A stretch of DNA of 64,000 nt from assembly GCF_025755255.1 (NCBI RefSeq), contig NZ_JALIEB010000002.1, positions 39,282-103,281 on the forward strand, read 5' to 3'. The translations under genes and the position numbers were made by a program. A model generated the notes under the pieces. That model was given only the letters and a program-made list of their open reading frames with translations, did not search any database and was not told where the DNA came from. Below, in pieces: positions 49,297 to 56,486 of this stretch. Position 1 is the first letter of the stretch; each line of letters begins with the position of its first letter. Origin of the DNA: Roseobacter sinensis. GTDB lineage: Bacteria > Pseudomonadota > Alphaproteobacteria > Rhodobacterales > Rhodobacteraceae.

Positions 49297-50061
49297 ATGG
49301 ATTCGATCTTCAAAGCCTTGGCCGACCCCACCCGCCGCAAGCTGCTTGACAGTTTGCGCGCCAAACCCGGGCAGAGCCTGCTGGACCTGCAAGGCCAGCT
49401 TGAGATGTCGCGATTTGGCGTGATGAAACATCTGGGCGTTCTTGAAGAAGCGAACCTGATCGTCACCAAGAAAGTGGGACGGTTCAAACATCATTACCTG
49501 AACGCCCTGCCCTTGCAGGATGCGATTGACCGCTGGATCGACCCCTACCGGGTCAAACCGGCGGCACGAGCAGCTCTCGACCTCAAATCCAAACTGGAAG
49601 GAACCACGCCGATGCGCGATGCCAAGCCCGACTTCATGATGCAAACCTTCATTCGCTGTACCCATGACGCCCTATGGGACGCGCTGACCGACCCCGAGCA
49701 GATGAGCGCCTATCACTTTCTCGCCGCGCGCGTCGTCAAGCAGGGTGACACTTACGTCTACGAGCACGCCGATGGCAGCAGAATGCTGACCTGCAAGACG
49801 CTGGAGATCACGCCGAAGTCCCGCATCGCTGCCACCTTCGAACCTGGATGGGACGAAACGCTGCAACCCTCGCGGCAGGTCTTTCTGCTGGTCCCGGAGG
49901 GTGATCACATGAAGCTCGTCATCGAACACTACGATCTGACCCACCCCGTCGTTCCGGGCGAGGGCATTCATGACGGCTGGGCCCGCTTTGCCTCGGGTCT
50001 GAAGAGCTGGCTGGAAACCGGCGAGACCGTCAAGTTCAACGATCATGCGATGGCGGGTTAA
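49297..50061 (+). CDS. ArsR-type winged-helix fused to SRPBCC (AHSA1) domain
   Basis: A 254-residue fusion. Residues 1-90 are an ArsR-family winged helix (IFKALADPTRRKLLDSL, recognition region LEMSRFGVMKHLGVLEEANLI, wing VGRFKHHYLN). Residues about 110-254 are a START-like SRPBCC ligand-binding domain (DFMMQTFIRCTHDALWDALTDPEQMSAY...). The likely role is a ligand-controlled repressor in which the hydrophobic cavity replaces the metal site; no CxC motif is visible. A nested dyad lies just upstream. MAPEG follows 3 bp after its stop, likely co-transcribed. Confidence 0.88.
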   Translation: MDSIFKALADPTRRKLLDSLRAKPGQSLLDLQGQLEMSRFGVMKHLGVLEEANLIVTKKVGRFKHHYLNALPLQDAIDRWIDPYRVKPAARAALDLKSKLEGTTPMRDAKPDFMMQTFIRCTHDALWDALTDPEQMSAYHFLAARVVKQGDTYVYEHADGSRMLTCKTLEITPKSRIAATFEPGWDETLQPSRQVFLLVPEGDHMKLVIEHYDLTHPVVPGEGIHDGWARFASGLKSWLETGETVKFNDHAMAG

Positions 50062-50064
50062 GCG

Positions 50065-50481
50065 ATGGAGATTTCAGCGCTTCCCGCGGAGTTGAGCGTC
50101 GTCATCTGGCTGGCGCTCTTCGCAGCCTCGCTCTGGATCCCCTACATCGTCGGGGTGAACATGCACCCGCAACAAGGCGTGGACGACTTTGCGCGCCCGC
50201 CGCCTCTTGTGGGGTTCCCGGAGTGGGTGCACCGTGCGCATCGCGCACATCTCAATCTTCTGGAACAGCTGGTCCCGTTCGCGGTCTTGGTCCTCGTCGT
50301 GGACCGGCTCGATGGCTTTTCTGCACTCACGCAGTGGACCGCGATCATCTTTCTATGCCTGCGGGTCGCCCATGCCATCGGGATGATCTCGGGCCTCGCG
50401 CGCTTCCCGCTAAGGCCGATCCTGTTCACGGGCGGGTGGCTCTGCTGCCTTGTGATGGGTTACGCGGCCTATACGGCGTGA
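50065..50481 (+). CDS. MAPEG-family integral membrane protein
   Basis: A 138-residue protein with four hydrophobic helices and the MAPEG pattern (WVHRAHRAHLNLLEQLVPFAVLVLV, then AIIFLCLRVAHAIGMISGL). The family includes membrane-associated glutathione transferases and eicosanoid enzymes, and bacterial members are mostly uncharacterised. It starts 3 bp after the ArsR-SRPBCC gene, so it may be part of the same response. The enzymatic substrate is not predictable. Confidence 0.85.
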   Translation: MEISALPAELSVVIWLALFAASLWIPYIVGVNMHPQQGVDDFARPPPLVGFPEWVHRAHRAHLNLLEQLVPFAVLVLVVDRLDGFSALTQWTAIIFLCLRVAHAIGMISGLARFPLRPILFTGGWLCCLVMGYAAYTA

Positions 50482-50931: not shown

Positions 50932-52890
50932 ATGGCTCCGAAAGACACCGCGATCTCTCTCACTTTTCCCGATGGCAACGCACGCAGCTTCGAGGCTGGC
51001 GTGACCGCTGGCGATGTGGCGGCCAGCATCTCCACCTCGCTGCGCAAGAAGGCCATCTCCGCCACGGTGAATGGCGCGCATTACGATCTGGCCTGGCCCA
51101 TCGAGGAAGATGCCACCATCGCGATTCACACCATGGCGGATGAAGAGCAGGCCAACGAGCTGGTGCGCCATGACCTTGCCCATATCATGGCCCGCGCGGT
51201 GCAGGAGATCTGGCCCGACACCAAGGTCACCATCGGTCCGGTGATCGAGAACGGCTGGTATTACGACTTCGACCGGGCGGACCCCTTCACCCCCGAAGAC
51301 CTCGGCCTCATCGAGAAGAAGATGAAGGAGATCATCAACAAGCGTGACCCGGTGCGCACCGAGGTCTGGGACCGCGCGCGCGCGATCAAGCATTATGAAG
51401 ACAACGGTGAACCTTACAAAGTCGAACTGATCGAGGCGATCCCGGGTGACGAACCGCTGCGCATGTACTGGCATGGCGACTGGCAGGACCTCTGCCGTGG
51501 TCCGCACCTGCAGCACACCGGACAGGTGCCCGGCGATGCCTTCAAACTGATGTCCATCGCGGGCGCCTATTGGCGCGGCGACAGCGATCGCGCGATGCTA
51601 CAGCGCATTTACGGCGTCGCCTTCACCGGCAAGGAGAAGCTGCGCGCCCATCTCAACATGCTGGAAGAGGCCGCCAAGCGCGACCACCGCAAGCTGGGCC
51701 GCGAGATGGACCTCTACCACATGCAGGAGGAGGCGCCGGGCCAGGTCTTCTGGCACCCCAACGGCTGGACCATCTACACCACTCTGCAGGACTACATGCG
51801 CCGCAAGCAGCGCGCAGGCGGCTATCGCGAGATCAACACCCCGCAGGTCGTGAACCGCAAGCTCTGGGAAGCCTCGGGTCACTGGGAGAAATACCAGGAG
51901 CACATGTTCATCGTTGAGGTGGAGGAGGAGCACGCGGCTGAGAAAGCCGTGAACGCGCTGAAACCGATGAACTGCCCCTGCCACGTGCAGGTGTTCAATC
52001 AGGGCCTCAAGTCCTATCGCGACCTGCCGCTGCGCCTGGCCGAGTTCGGCGCCTGCACCCGATATGAGCCCTCCGGCGCGCTGCACGGCATCATGCGCGT
52101 GCGCGGCTTCACCCAGGACGACGCGCATATCTTCTGCACCGAAGCGCAGATCGAGGCGGAGTGCGCGAAGTTCATCAACTTCCTTGCAGATATCTACACC
52201 GATCTGGGCTTCGAGAAATTCGAGATCAAATTCGCCACCCGGCCCGAAAAACGCGTGGGCAGTGACGAGAGCTGGGATCACGTGGAAGGGGCGCTGGAAG
52301 CCGCCATCAAGGCAACCGGGCGTGACTTCACGCTGGAGCCGGGCGACGGCGCCTTCTATGGCCCCAAGCTCGACTTCTACCTGACCGACGCCATTGGCCG
52401 GGTCTGGCAGTGCGGCACCTTCCAGGTGGACCCGAACCTGCCCGAACGGCTGGGGGCCACCTATATCGGCGAGGACGGCGCCAAGCACCGGCCCTACATG
52501 CTGCACCGCGCCTGTCTGGGATCCTTCGAGCGGTTCATCGGGATCCTGATCGAGAACTCCGCCGGCAAGCTGCCCTTCTGGCTGGCCCCGCGTCAGGTGG
52601 TTGTAGCTTCGATCATCTCGGATGCAGATGAATATGTGCAGGACGTCGTGGACACGCTGAAGGCGGCCGGCGTGCGCGCCGAAGCCGACGTGCGCAACGA
52701 GAAGATCAACTACAAGGTCCGCGAACACTCGGTGGGCAAGGTACCTGTGATCCTCGCCGTCGGCGCACGCGAAGTGGACGAGCGCACCGTGACGGTCCGC
52801 CGGCTTGGCGAAAAACAGACCACCGTCGAGGCGCTTGGGGCTGTAGCAGAGGCTCTGGGACGTGACGCGACGCCCCCGGATCTGCTGTAA
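50932..52890 (+). CDS. thrS: Threonyl-tRNA synthetase
   Basis: A 652-residue class II synthetase. The N-terminal TGS domain ([25 protein letters not shown], residues 5-65) is followed by the editing domain with [16 protein letters not shown]. The catalytic domain has the zinc cysteine in [10 protein letters not shown], the motif 2 region [19 protein letters not shown], and motif 3 [17 protein letters not shown]. The C-terminal anticodon-binding domain ends the chain. It charges tRNA-Thr and edits serine. GAGGAG lies upstream of ATG 50932. A terminator hairpin follows the stop, before the bufferin operon. Confidence 0.98.
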
Positions 52891-52898
52891 CAATTGCC

Positions 52899-52931
52899 CG
52901 CCTCACGCCGTAAAACCGTCGGTGTGAGGCG
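52899..52931 (+). terminator. Terminator hairpin of thrS
   Basis: CGCCTCACGCCG (52899-52910) and CGGTGTGAGGCG (52920-52931) form a 12-pair stem with one G-U, around a 9-nt loop, beginning 9 bp after the thrS stop. The trailing T run is weak (TGATTCCTGT), so termination may be partial. Confidence 0.7.
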
Positions 52932-53053
52932 TGATTCCTGTAACATTCCGTAATCTTCGCCAAGATTTCCGCGCAGAGAGCCAACATCTGCTGACGGCTG
53001 CGTGAGGCACAGGCTCGTGAGTGGAATGTCGGTTTCCCAGCCTTTAGCTTTTG

Positions 53054-53087
53054 CCCTATCATTGGCCACCATGGTCCTCAAATAGGG
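53054..53087 (+). promoter_or_regulatory. Inverted repeat covering the ribosome site of the bufferin precursor gene
   Basis: CCCTAT (53054-53059) and ATAGGG (53082-53087) are inverted repeats 22 bp apart. The right arm contains the AGGG of the likely Shine-Dalgarno AGGGA, nine bases before ATG 53097. If formed in RNA, the stem would hide this site. The inner sequence contains ACCATGGT. Confidence 0.4.
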
Positions 53088-53096
53088 AATGAAATC

Positions 53097-53399
53097 ATGT
53101 CGAATACGATGAAAACAGTCGCAATCGTTGGAGCTGTTGCTGCGGCGATGACCGCTCAGGTGACCACAGCTCAGGCGGCCGCCAAGGAGAAATGCTATGG
53201 CATTTCGTTGGCCGGTGCCAATGACTGTGCTGCGGGCCCGGGTACAACCTGCGCCGGCACATCTACGGTTGACTATCAAGGCAACGCTTGGACCCTTGTG
53301 GACGCAGGCACGTGCACAGAGATCGAACTGCCGGCAATGGCCGACGGCACACCGCGCCAAGGCTCGCTGGAAGAACTGGACCGCGACCTGCCTGCATAA
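53097..53399 (+). CDS. DUF2282 bufferin-type precursor peptide (BufA1-like)
   Basis: A 100-residue precursor. Residues 1-28 form a Sec signal peptide ([23 protein letters not shown]). The mature DUF2282 core begins [15 protein letters not shown] and has four cysteines, Cys33, Cys44, Cys52 and Cys73, spaced CYG...NDC...TTC...GTC. In bufferins, DUF692 enzymes convert such cysteines to thiooxazole groups and the exported peptide binds copper, as established for Caulobacter. The tail past residue 78 is acidic. ATG 53097 is the natural start; an in-frame ATG at codon 5 could also serve. bufB-like follows after 96 bp. Confidence 0.88.
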
Positions 53400-53495
53400 G
53401 GCCGGATCTGAAAGACTTGCGTTCGGCGACAACTGGTCGCCGGACCTCTCTCATCTGAAGATACCCGAGACCCCAACGTCCGTCAGAGGGCCAAA

Positions 53496-54350
53496 ATGCT
53501 GGACAATTCTCCCCGTTTCGACCACCTGCCCGCAGCCCCCGGCGTCGGCTACAAGCCGCAGCATTTCGACGAATTGCGCGCAGAGCCGGGCCCTGTTGCA
53601 TGGCTCGAGATTCATGCCGAGAACTACATGGGTGACGGCGGACGGCCGATCGCACAGCTGCGCGCGCTCTCCGAACAATTCGCAGTGTCGGTGCATGGTG
53701 TCGGTCTCAGCATCGGCGGTGAGGGCCCGCTTGATCCCGCGCATCTGGCCCGTCTGAAACACTTGGTGGGCTGGTTGCAGCCCGCGAGCTTCTCGGAGCA
53801 TCTGGCCTGGTCGACCCACGGAGCCGAATTCCTCAACGACCTGCTGCCGCTGCCCTACACCGACGAAACGCTTGCGCGCGTGGCCGATCACATCGATCAG
53901 GTCCAGTCCACCCTCGGCTGTCAGATGCTTCTGGAAAACCCGTCGAGCTACCTCGCCTTTGCCGAAAGCACGTGGTCCGAGACCGACTTTCTGAGCGAGC
54001 TGGTCCGCCGCACCGGGTGCGGCCTGCTGCTCGACGTCAACAACGTCTTTGTATCGGCCACCAACCTCGGTCTCTCGGCCCGCGACTACATCGATGCCTT
54101 CCCGCTGCATGCGGTTGGGGAAATCCACGTCGGCGGTCATGACGAAGAGACCGACGAGCATGGCACACCCTTGCTCATCGACAGCCACGGCGCGCCGGTC
54201 GTCGATCCGGTCTGGTCGCTGCTTGAGATCACGCTGGCAAAGTCCGGCCCCCGCCCGATTCTGGTCGAGTGGGATACGGATGTCCCGGACTGGCCGACCT
54301 TGCGGAGCGAGGCAGACCGCGCAGCGAAGGCGCTGTCGCCGGTCCGATGA
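53496..54350 (+). CDS. DUF692 multinuclear iron oxidative enzyme (BufB-like MNIO)
   Basis: A 284-residue TIM-barrel-type DUF692 protein. Likely metal-site segments are LEIHAENYMGDGG (near 38-48), VSVHGVGLSIGG (His67), FSEHLAW (Glu101/His102), LLENPSSY (Glu147), LLLDVNNV (Asp180), EIHVGGHDEE (His211, His215), DSHGAPV (His231) and VEWDTDVP (Glu258). These match the multinuclear non-haem iron enzymes that rewrite cysteines of ribosomal peptides, as in MbnB and BufB. The ATG at 53496 opens MLDNSPRFDH; AGAGGG precedes it. Its stop overlaps the bufC-like start by four bases (ATGA). Confidence 0.9.
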   Translation: MLDNSPRFDHLPAAPGVGYKPQHFDELRAEPGPVAWLEIHAENYMGDGGRPIAQLRALSEQFAVSVHGVGLSIGGEGPLDPAHLARLKHLVGWLQPASFSEHLAWSTHGAEFLNDLLPLPYTDETLARVADHIDQVQSTLGCQMLLENPSSYLAFAESTWSETDFLSELVRRTGCGLLLDVNNVFVSATNLGLSARDYIDAFPLHAVGEIHVGGHDEETDEHGTPLLIDSHGAPVVDPVWSLLEITLAKSGPRPILVEWDTDVPDWPTLRSEADRAAKALSPVR

Positions 54351-55102
54351 TCGTCACTCAAACAAGATTTCGCGGCGCCTTGCTGGATCCGACTCAGGCG
54401 GTGCCGGAGGGCTTGCTGGATGGTGCGGATCAGCCCGCGGGCCGCCGCTTCGCTGTCTACCGGAACAATGTGGTCGTCTCGCTGACCGAGGCGCTGCAAG
54501 TGGCCTTTCCGCTGGTCTACAAACTCCTGGGCGCGCAGACATTTGCCAGGCTGGCTGGCATTTACGTCCGCGCGCACCCGCCGAGCTCGCCGCTGATGAT
54601 GCACTATGGCGCGGCGCTGCCCGGCTTTCTGGAGACCTTCGAACCGCTGGCACATCTGGGCTACCTGGCCGATTGTGCGCGGCTCGATCTGGCCCTGCGG
54701 GCCGCCTATCACGCCGCCGACGCCCCGGCGCTGGCGCCCGAACGGCTGCAATGCGCACCTGAGGCGCTCGTCGGCATGAGCCTTGCTCTGCACCCTGCAA
54801 CGCGGATCGTCCGGTCGCGCTGGCCGCTCTACGATATCTGGCGGCTGAACAACGAGGCTGACGCACCGAAGCCGCGCGCGGTGGCGCAGGACGTGCTCAT
54901 CACCCGGCCGGAGTTCGACCCAAGCCCGCATCTGCTGCCCGAGGGTGGCGCTCTCTGGCTTGAAAGCCTCGCTTCGGGTCAAACATTTGGCGCGGCGCAT
55001 GACACCGCTCTGGCCGCGGTTCCCGACTTCGATCTGGCGCAGGCTCTGACCCTTGCGCTGCAAACCAGCGCCCTGACGGACGACAAGACAAAGGACGATT
55101 AA
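54347..55102 (+). CDS. DUF2063 partner protein of the DUF692 enzyme (BufC-like)
   Basis: A 251-residue protein. The N-terminal half is the DUF2063 putative DNA-binding-like domain (FRGALLDPTQAVPEGLLD, RRFAVYRNNVVVSLTEALQVAFPLVYKLLGAQTF), the domain found in MbnC/BufC partners that deliver the precursor to the MNIO enzyme. The C-terminal half is a beta domain (VRSRWPLYDIWRLNNEA...GALWLESLASGQTF). In the known systems it is a specificity subunit, not a transcription factor. ATG 54347 overlaps the bufB-like stop. The next gene starts directly after its TAA. Confidence 0.88.
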   Translation: MIVTQTRFRGALLDPTQAVPEGLLDGADQPAGRRFAVYRNNVVVSLTEALQVAFPLVYKLLGAQTFARLAGIYVRAHPPSSPLMMHYGAALPGFLETFEPLAHLGYLADCARLDLALRAAYHAADAPALAPERLQCAPEALVGMSLALHPATRIVRSRWPLYDIWRLNNEADAPKPRAVAQDVLITRPEFDPSPHLLPEGGALWLESLASGQTFGAAHDTALAAVPDFDLAQALTLALQTSALTDDKTKDD

Positions 55103-55651
55103 ATGATCTCTCTCTATGCTTCGGCGACCAACCGTCTCTCGCAGGCGGATTGGCTGCTTGCCACGCTCGCGCGTTTTGTCTTTGCCGCCACGCTGCTGAT
55201 GTATTTCTGGGTCTCGGGGCTGACCAAGCTGGGCGACGGGATCGGCGGCCTGTTCAGCCCGTCCGTGGGTGCCTACGCCCAGATCTTTCCCAAGGCGATG
55301 GAGGCTGTCACCTATGACGTGACGCAGCTGTCGATGTTTCATTGGGCGGTCGTCGTCGCGGGCACCTGGGCCGAGTTCATCCTGCCGGCGCTGATCGTCC
55401 TGGGCCTTCTGACGCGCCTCTCTGCGCTGGGGATGATCGGCTTTGTCATCGTCCAGTCCCTGACGGATCTGATCGGTCATGGCGGGTTGGAGCACAAGGA
55501 GACTTTTGGCGCCTGGTTCGACCGCTTTCCCGACAGCGCGATCCTCGATCAGCGTGCCTTCTGGATCTTCATCCTGCTGGTGCTGGTCATCAAGGGCGCA
55601 GGGCCGCTTTCGCTCGACGCCGCGTTGCGCCGGCGCGCCTCTGCCGAGTGA
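55103..55651 (+). CDS. DoxX-family membrane protein of the bufferin operon
   Basis: A 182-residue DoxX-like protein with four predicted helices (LLATLARFVFAATLLMYFWVSG, AVVVAGTWAEFILPALIVLGLL, LGMIGFVIVQSLTDLIG, FWIFILLVLVIKGAGPLSL). DoxX genes often close bufA-bufB-bufC operons; the role is unknown, with quinone-linked or electron-delivery functions proposed. The ATG abuts the bufC-like stop (TAAATG). A conserved HGG segment near residue 127 could be functional. It is the last gene of the operon. Confidence 0.88.
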   Translation: MISLYASATNRLSQADWLLATLARFVFAATLLMYFWVSGLTKLGDGIGGLFSPSVGAYAQIFPKAMEAVTYDVTQLSMFHWAVVVAGTWAEFILPALIVLGLLTRLSALGMIGFVIVQSLTDLIGHGGLEHKETFGAWFDRFPDSAILDQRAFWIFILLVLVIKGAGPLSLDAALRRRASAE

Positions 55652-55978: not shown

Positions 55979-56075
55979 TTACTCACAATTCCGAAAATTT
56001 GGGGCTGAAATCAGCAGCTTTCTTCCCGTTTAGCTTGATTTTTACAGAGGAAGGGCAATCTCTTAAAGGGCAGAA

Positions 56076-56133
56076 CATACGATTGACATCGTATGAATTG
56101 CATGCAGACGCCGCCCCAGTGCTTTTGGGGCGG
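56076..56133 (+). promoter_or_regulatory. Structured 5' leader of the cold-shock gene
   Basis: Two hairpins precede cspA. The first is CATACGAT (56076-56083) with ATCGTATG (56088-56095) and a TGAC loop. The second is CCGCCCCA (56111-56118) with TGGGGCGG (56126-56133). The palindrome TGCATGCA (56099-56106) lies between them. A consensus TTGACA (56083-56088) overlaps the first hairpin, so it may belong to promoter or leader. An AGGAGG near 56148 follows. Confidence 0.5.
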
Positions 56134-56163
56134 TCCAGTAAGACAAAAGGAGGCACGGAAGGA

Positions 56164-56370
56164 ATGCCAAATGGCACCGTGAAGTGGTTCAACACCACAA
56201 AAGGCTACGGCTTTATCGCTCCGGAAGGGGGCGGCTCGGATGTGTTCGTTCACATCTCGGCGGTTGAAAGATCGGGTCTGACCGGTCTGGCCGACGATCA
56301 GAAAGTGAGCTTCGAACTGGCAGAGGGCCGCGACGGCCGGCAAATGGCCAGCGACCTGAAACTGCTATAA
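56164..56370 (+). CDS. cspA: Cold-shock domain protein
   Basis: A 68-residue single cold-shock domain with the RNA-binding motifs RNP1 (KGYGFIAP) and RNP2 (VFVHISAV). It begins MPNGTVKWFNTTKGYGF, standard for alphaproteobacterial CspA. Such proteins bind single-stranded nucleic acid and melt RNA secondary structure. ATG 56164 is preceded by AGGAGG and a second purine-rich tract. A structured leader upstream suggests post-transcriptional control, as in other csp genes. Confidence 0.95.
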   Translation: MPNGTVKWFNTTKGYGFIAPEGGGSDVFVHISAVERSGLTGLADDQKVSFELAEGRDGRQMASDLKLL

Positions 56371-56486
56371 TCGCAACACCAACAGGCCGTGCGATCAAAC
56401 GGGCGACCAACGCGTCGGCCGTGCAGAGGGTACGTTTACGTCTTATTCGCTGAACCGACATAGCATCATCGTGTCGGTAAACGGCC

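Follow-up and report, generated by a model that had tools for sequence, protein, structure and literature searches.

A Buf1-type bufferin operon of Roseobacter sinensis and a putative tandem-palindrome operator upstream of it

We have analyzed a 64,000-nucleotide stretch of the Roseobacter sinensis genome (contig NZ_JALIEB010000002.1), here called the window, and describe an operon which by its sequence is of the Buf1 bufferin type and whose genes are arranged as in the copper-induced operon of Caulobacter. The gene cluster itself is ordinary, being one more bufferin operon of an already known type; the unexpected part, and the one worth following, is its regulatory arrangement. Taken as a whole, the locus is very probably best explained as a Buf1-type copper-buffering peptide operon that would be switched on by an activator bound to a tandem palindrome and that carries a hairpin between its first two genes. 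Both the operator-like element upstream and this hairpin were absent from the original prediction.

Gene set, products and distribution

The genes of the operon and the signals next to them are the following, all on the + strand:

53084..53089, +: likely bufA ribosome binding site AGGGAA, read from the sequence
53097..53399, +: bufA, Buf1 precursor of 100 aa (PF10048, E 2e-24)
53421..53445, +: 10-bp stem-loop between bufA and bufB, from folding of the gap and stem counts
53496..54350, +: bufB, MNIO bufferin maturase of 284 aa (PF05114, E 2.5e-101)
54347..55102, +: bufC, DUF2063 plus RRE-type partner (PME type 1) of 251 aa (PF09836, E 5.8e-24)
55103..55651, +: doxX, DoxX-family membrane protein of 182 aa (PF07681, E 1.2e-6)

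The original prediction had placed a DUF2282 precursor, an MNIO enzyme, a DUF2063 partner and DoxX in this order at 53097-55651, and the coordinates of the reading frames agree with it, as do the junctions it described, with bufB and bufC overlapping by ATGA and the TAA of bufC abutting the ATG of doxX. The profile searches it had proposed for DUF2282, DUF692 and DUF2063 have been run, and all four proteins exceed the curated Pfam cut-offs (85.8 bits against 22.4 for BufA with the DUF2282 model PF10048; 29.5 bits against 23.6 for the doxX product with PF07681). Its placement of the cluster among the bufferins is borne out by profile models of both Pfam and NCBIfam as well as by the BufC fold, and bufA, bufB and bufC, the core gene set of Buf1, lie together with doxX at one locus. 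The presumed roseobacter host is indeed a Roseobacter: the BufA of one same-genus genome is identical to that of the Roseobacter cerasinus locus (L004).

The four cysteines of BufA (residues 33, 44, 52 and 73) stand in the CYG/NDC/TTC/GTC pattern that had been claimed and are invariant in 15/15 aligned precursors. As judged by eye, the N-terminus is hydrophobic and Ala-rich with AQA-A at residues 25-28, and residues 11-27 form a helix in the AlphaFold model, which is of low confidence and as a whole unusable (pLDDT 50). NCBIfam models gave no match for BufA. Reported Buf1 carries thiooxazoles on the two central cysteines only, while the outer two form a disulphide (PMC12452194). Since the central cysteines are the modified ones there, C44 and C52 would by position be the thiooxazole sites here, which refines the earlier assignment to cysteines in general. 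The C-terminus of BufA, R-x-GSL-xx-L-x-RDLPA (residues 76-100, window 53322-53399), lies mostly outside the Pfam match. Its conservation is strong among the precursors read from Rhodobacteraceae, and many of the class-wide precursors end in a similar GSL tail; it may serve in recognition or folding.

BufB scores 367.5 bits against the NCBIfam model NF050167 MNIO_BufB ('MNIO family bufferin maturase'; cut-off 310) and stays below the cut-offs of the remaining MNIO models of NCBIfam, those for oxazolin and methanobactin enzymes included. A PDB sequence search with BufB matches 3BWW, the TglHI enzyme and MbnB. Throughout 81 sequences (the best 80 of at least 572 relatives plus the window) its His, Asp, Asn and Glu residues are near-invariant, among them H67, H102, E147, D180, N183, H211, H215, D229, H231 and E258. 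We take these to be residues of the type expected at the metal site, the assignment of those that bind iron coming from work on MbnB.

For BufC, a PDB sequence search with the single sequence or with a profile returned nothing meaningful. The AlphaFold model of the protein is confident (pLDDT 91.3), and a fold search with it gave three PDB matches at E < 0.001, namely two TglHI entries and 3DEE (NGO1945). The model aligns to TglHI chain A over 267 columns and to 3DEE over 216; chain A is taken as the partner TglI because the DUF692 enzyme is chain D of 8hci. As modeled, BufC is folded like the MNIO partner proteins.

The 96-base gap between bufA and bufB folds with a z of -2.85 in the window. 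Its median over 81 gaps is -2.76, whereas leader stretches from 80 loci give -0.06, and a perfect stem of at least 9 bp (G-U allowed) is present in 68/81 gaps against 3.5% of shuffles, these counts referring to the best 80 of at least 572 relatives and, for the gaps, the window. The hairpin is thus conserved as structure, its sequence being variable among the 24 loci that were aligned. Because a T-rich tail follows in only 7/81 of the same gaps, simple termination is less likely than a role in processing or in protecting the mRNA, and the hairpin may set the peptide-to-enzyme ratio.

Profile searches find one DUF2282 gene and one MNIO gene in the own genome. Our sample of relatives consists of the best 80 of at least 572 confirmed BufB matches and leans to close relatives; within it, all four buf genes are present in 80/80, which sets the gene set far from chance, and the bufB-bufC overlap is four bases long in 76/80 when the bufC start nearest the bufB stop is taken. 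The neighbours in the same sample are thrS (78/80), an arsC-like gene (72/80) and csp (70/80), some contigs ending early. DUF2282 occurs in 140/198 family genomes and in 100/289 genomes of the class sample. The buf locus is syntenic and widespread, and an earlier list of RiPP genes expressed in biofilms includes DUF692 genes from Sulfitobacter (PMC11278168).

Several further features were seen around these loci. Paired adjacent DUF2282 matches at G007:C18:55492-55990 and G100:C45:5470-6052 are probably tandem bufA genes. A membrane-like ORF of 136 aa lies between doxX and the arsC-like gene of Silicibacter/Ruegeria lacuscaerulensis (L012:8145-8555), and a similar gap is present in other Ruegeria loci, the window being without it. 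At 56043-56399 of the window, the Rfam cspA thermoregulator model matches the cold-shock gene together with its leader at 24.6 bits, well under the gathering score of 78. Upstream of thrS, the window encodes what we take to be an ArsR-type HTH protein fused to an SRPBCC-like domain (49297-50481), adjoined by a small, presumably MAPEG-like membrane protein.

A conserved block upstream of bufA

The alignment of upstream regions contains one conserved block. Two features are proposed in front of bufA:

52992..53020, +: tandem palindrome TNAC-N6-GTGA-N2-CAC-N6-GTGA, proposed buf operator, from its fixed spacing in conserved upstream regions
53045..53050, +: likely -10 hexamer TAGCTT, 24 nt past the element, from (T/C)(T/A)A--TT columns in 72 non-redundant upstream regions

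The 29-bp element ends 76 bp before bufA and is its sole exact match within the window. Among 80 upstream regions, formed by the window and 79 relatives (best 80 of at least 572; L031 omitted, its upstream sequence being too short), it occurs with at most 2 mismatches in 79/80 and exactly in 65, compared to 0/80 after shuffling. Each of 19 genus genomes, the own included, holds one exact copy, with a further 1-mismatch match in two of them; a reversed control pattern gave 3 matches with at most 1 mismatch across all 19. A DUF2282 gene follows right behind the element in 17/19 of these genomes by script and in the remaining two by a looser pattern. In the own genome, the only other 1-mismatch match to the 31-bp form lies inside a reading frame (C27:104982), and the 29-bp form has one more (C27:404952).

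The link extends to the family, where 43/43 exact copies precede DUF2282 in a tally by eye and where, allowing at most 1 mismatch, 81/140 DUF2282-bearing genomes have the element at a distance of 153-228 bp ahead of the domain. With the reversed pattern as control, 198 family genomes yielded 6 matches, again by eye. Sixteen other places in family genomes, all with one mismatch, are not upstream of DUF2282; ten of the 16 were inspected by eye, and in nine of these no regulator gene could be recognised next to the match, the tenth being a second site within a buf operon (L229, below). Of the 30 family loci with the best scores, 17 are within 2 mismatches of the element. Among 30 class-wide loci (one too short), none is within 2 mismatches, the best having 3, a value equalled by one shuffle; the element therefore seems confined to the family.

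Column conservation was read from 72 non-redundant regions out of 113. Beyond the core pattern, a G after TNAC and a C or T before each GTGA are conserved in them, as are a T two bases past the block (imposed by the pattern for the 19 genus loci only) and a further TNAC ten bases upstream of it, which reads CAAC in the window. We interpret the block as a tandem pair of dyads offset by 15 bp, whose centres would fall near -44 and -59 relative to the likely start, the position of an activator. A literature search over titles and abstract openings, with subscription journals mostly outside its reach, returned no account of such an element.

Two loci differ in the number of copies. One has a second 1-mismatch copy between bufA and bufB, besides the upstream one (L229:1720-1750, G063:C9). 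The other is an array of 15-bp dyads with two overlapping 1-mismatch copies and no bufferin link (L223:1396-1456, G191:C22), situated, as judged by eye, between alpha/beta-hydrolase-like and SDR-like genes; a related regulator may bind there. In two further loci (L042, L051) the thrS-bufA inserts were also read, as was the ORF that follows doxX in L012, and none looks like a regulator.

Palindrome and SigF/NrsF control within the family

A search for NrsF (PF06532) gave 0 matches in the own genome, which is 99.58% complete, with Caulobacter positive as control. The SigF-type promoter GTAAC-N17-CGAA has no exact match in the window, and its 1-mismatch matches there number 3 against 5.8 expected by chance; the single one before bufA (52887-52912) overlaps the thrS stop. 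Caulobacter-type SigF/NrsF control thus seems, from the sequence, not to carry over to this genome.

Across the family, NrsF is over its cut-off in 28/198 genomes, a 29th match falling under it. The 140 genomes with DUF2282 divide into 1 with both element and NrsF (G155), 80 with the element only, 21 with NrsF only and 38 with neither (Fisher p 1.7e-8, kinship ignored). Where NrsF lies within 5 kb of DUF2282, the element is present in 0/16 genomes. The region upstream of bufA was read in 58 of the 59 element-negative genomes (G098 omitted, its gene lying at a contig end), and a precursor ORF was available in 55 (20 with NrsF, 35 NrsF-free; G130, G014 and G059 left out). Within these, GTAAC-N17-CGAA occurs exactly in 11/20 NrsF genomes and 0/35 NrsF-free ones, while a weaker element with 2-3 mismatches shows the reverse (0/20 and 15/35); one shuffle per region produced neither. 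By these criteria, 9/20 and 20/35, respectively, have neither promoter type. The SigF-type pattern is exact in 1/80 close upstream regions (best 80 of at least 572) and in 6/28 class-wide loci.

We read this as two arrangements, with a sigma switch in some genera, the palindrome apparently in most, and an unsettled remainder. On balance we lean to the view that in most operon-bearing Rhodobacteraceae SigF/NrsF has been replaced by a putative single-target factor acting at TNACG-N4-CGTGA-NN-CACG-N4-CGTGA near -44/-59. Because the two arrangements are almost mutually exclusive in the family, the metal sensor would have been exchanged and the chemistry kept.

That the block is no operator for a transcription factor but a promoter for an ECF sigma factor, or else an RNA element within the transcript, is in our judgement quite unlikely. 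The distance from TGACGG to the second CGTGA, about 18 bases, is roughly that of an ECF promoter, yet the block is two-fold symmetric and tandem and has a separate -10-like box 24 nt downstream, and is therefore expected to precede the start site. Moreover, the known SigF-type promoter differs from it in sequence and sorts with NrsF as counted above, and Rfam gives no match at the block up to E 1, which speaks against an RNA element. The Pfam text for PF09836 names a putative DNA-binding domain, and NGO1945 was given a DNA-binding description in 2009. That BufC is a DNA-binding regulator of the operon and not a maturation partner is nevertheless highly improbable: its best folds are the TglHI entries, presumably TglI, followed by NGO1945, for which the current view is that of a typical partner of MNIO enzymes (PMC12452194); its gene shares the four-base overlap with bufB; and the literature names DUF2063 proteins as the partners most often found with MNIO enzymes (PMC12452194, PMC13097082), whereas none of the 30 class-wide loci showed the element. 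A separate transcription factor at the palindrome is the reading we prefer.

Proposed role and comparison with known systems

For modification, export, copper binding and induction, including the thiooxazole chemistry of the Roseobacter BufA, we infer by analogy what holds for the Caulobacter relative. The published Buf1 model comprises a signal-peptide precursor, thiooxazoles made by BufBC, an outer disulphide and periplasmic copper chelation (PMC12452194). Along these lines, BufA would be made with a Sec signal peptide and presented in the cytoplasm by BufC, the RRE partner, to BufB, an iron-dependent oxidase that would convert Cys44 and Cys52 into 5-thiooxazoles. The modified BufA would then be exported, form the Cys33-Cys73 disulphide and buffer excess copper in the periplasm, with DoxX as a presumed accessory membrane protein. 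A transcription factor other than SigF/NrsF would bind the tandem palindrome and activate the promoter, and the hairpin would keep bufA mRNA above bufBC mRNA.

With the same peptide chemistry, the main role might lie with gold, silver, chromate, cadmium or oxidative stress instead of copper, which we consider rather unlikely. The gig operon of Cupriavidus CH34 responds to gold and silver besides copper and has no effect on copper resistance, perhaps masked by other determinants (PMC8224329), and the neighbouring genes checked here (thrS, arsC-like, csp) are not copper genes and are uninformative on this metal. Against this stand the reports that Buf1 chelates copper and aids growth in copper excess (PMC12452194) and that, among chromate, cadmium and copper, growth with copper was strongly impaired by loss of sigF (PMC8224329). 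CCNA_03363-03366 of Caulobacter are strongly copper-induced and the sigF mutant is copper-sensitive (PMC8224329, PMC3511200), a phenotype that reflects the whole regulon and not the buf operon alone (PMC8224329). Copper buffering remains the role we prefer.

Among the closest described systems is the Buf1 operon of Caulobacter vibrioides (CC3254-CC3257 / CCNA_03363-03366), which has the four families in the order found here (PMC3511200). It differs in that the Roseobacter genome has no NrsF match and the window no exact SigF-type promoter, with the tandem palindrome instead, and in that one MNIO and one DUF2282 gene stand here against a second paralogous operon in Caulobacter (PMC3511200). The gig operons of Cupriavidus metallidurans and Legionella pneumophila, which have been assigned to the bufferin clusters (PMC12452194), contain the same four families in other host groups, Legionella with three further homologous regions, compared to the one operon here. 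Oxazolin/captophorin clusters (HvfABC, fontiphorin), with copper-linked 5-thiooxazole, likewise combine an MNIO enzyme and a DUF2063 partner with a Cys-rich peptide (PMC13097082), but the precursor is DUF2282 here and has EGKCG repeats there, and the HvfB, HvfC and HvfX models score under their cut-offs (HvfB 227.2 against 360, HvfC 32.2 against 142, HvfX 26.2 against 80 bits). Methanobactin MbnABC also has an MNIO enzyme acting on cysteines of a copper peptide, and BufB matches MbnB structures by sequence; its precursor, partner and product are all different, and the NCBIfam MbnB model gives 58.9 bits against a cut-off of 325.

In summary, the promoter finding gives a handle on the activation of bufferin operons that lack SigF/NrsF, and the single exact genomic copy makes the 29-bp element a straightforward bait for a pull-down of the sensor. 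The hairpin is a simple candidate explanation for the production of more peptide than enzyme. Many roseobacter genomes carry bufferins as a regular component in conserved synteny, and many coastal marine bacteria thus probably make a peptide that by analogy would buffer copper.
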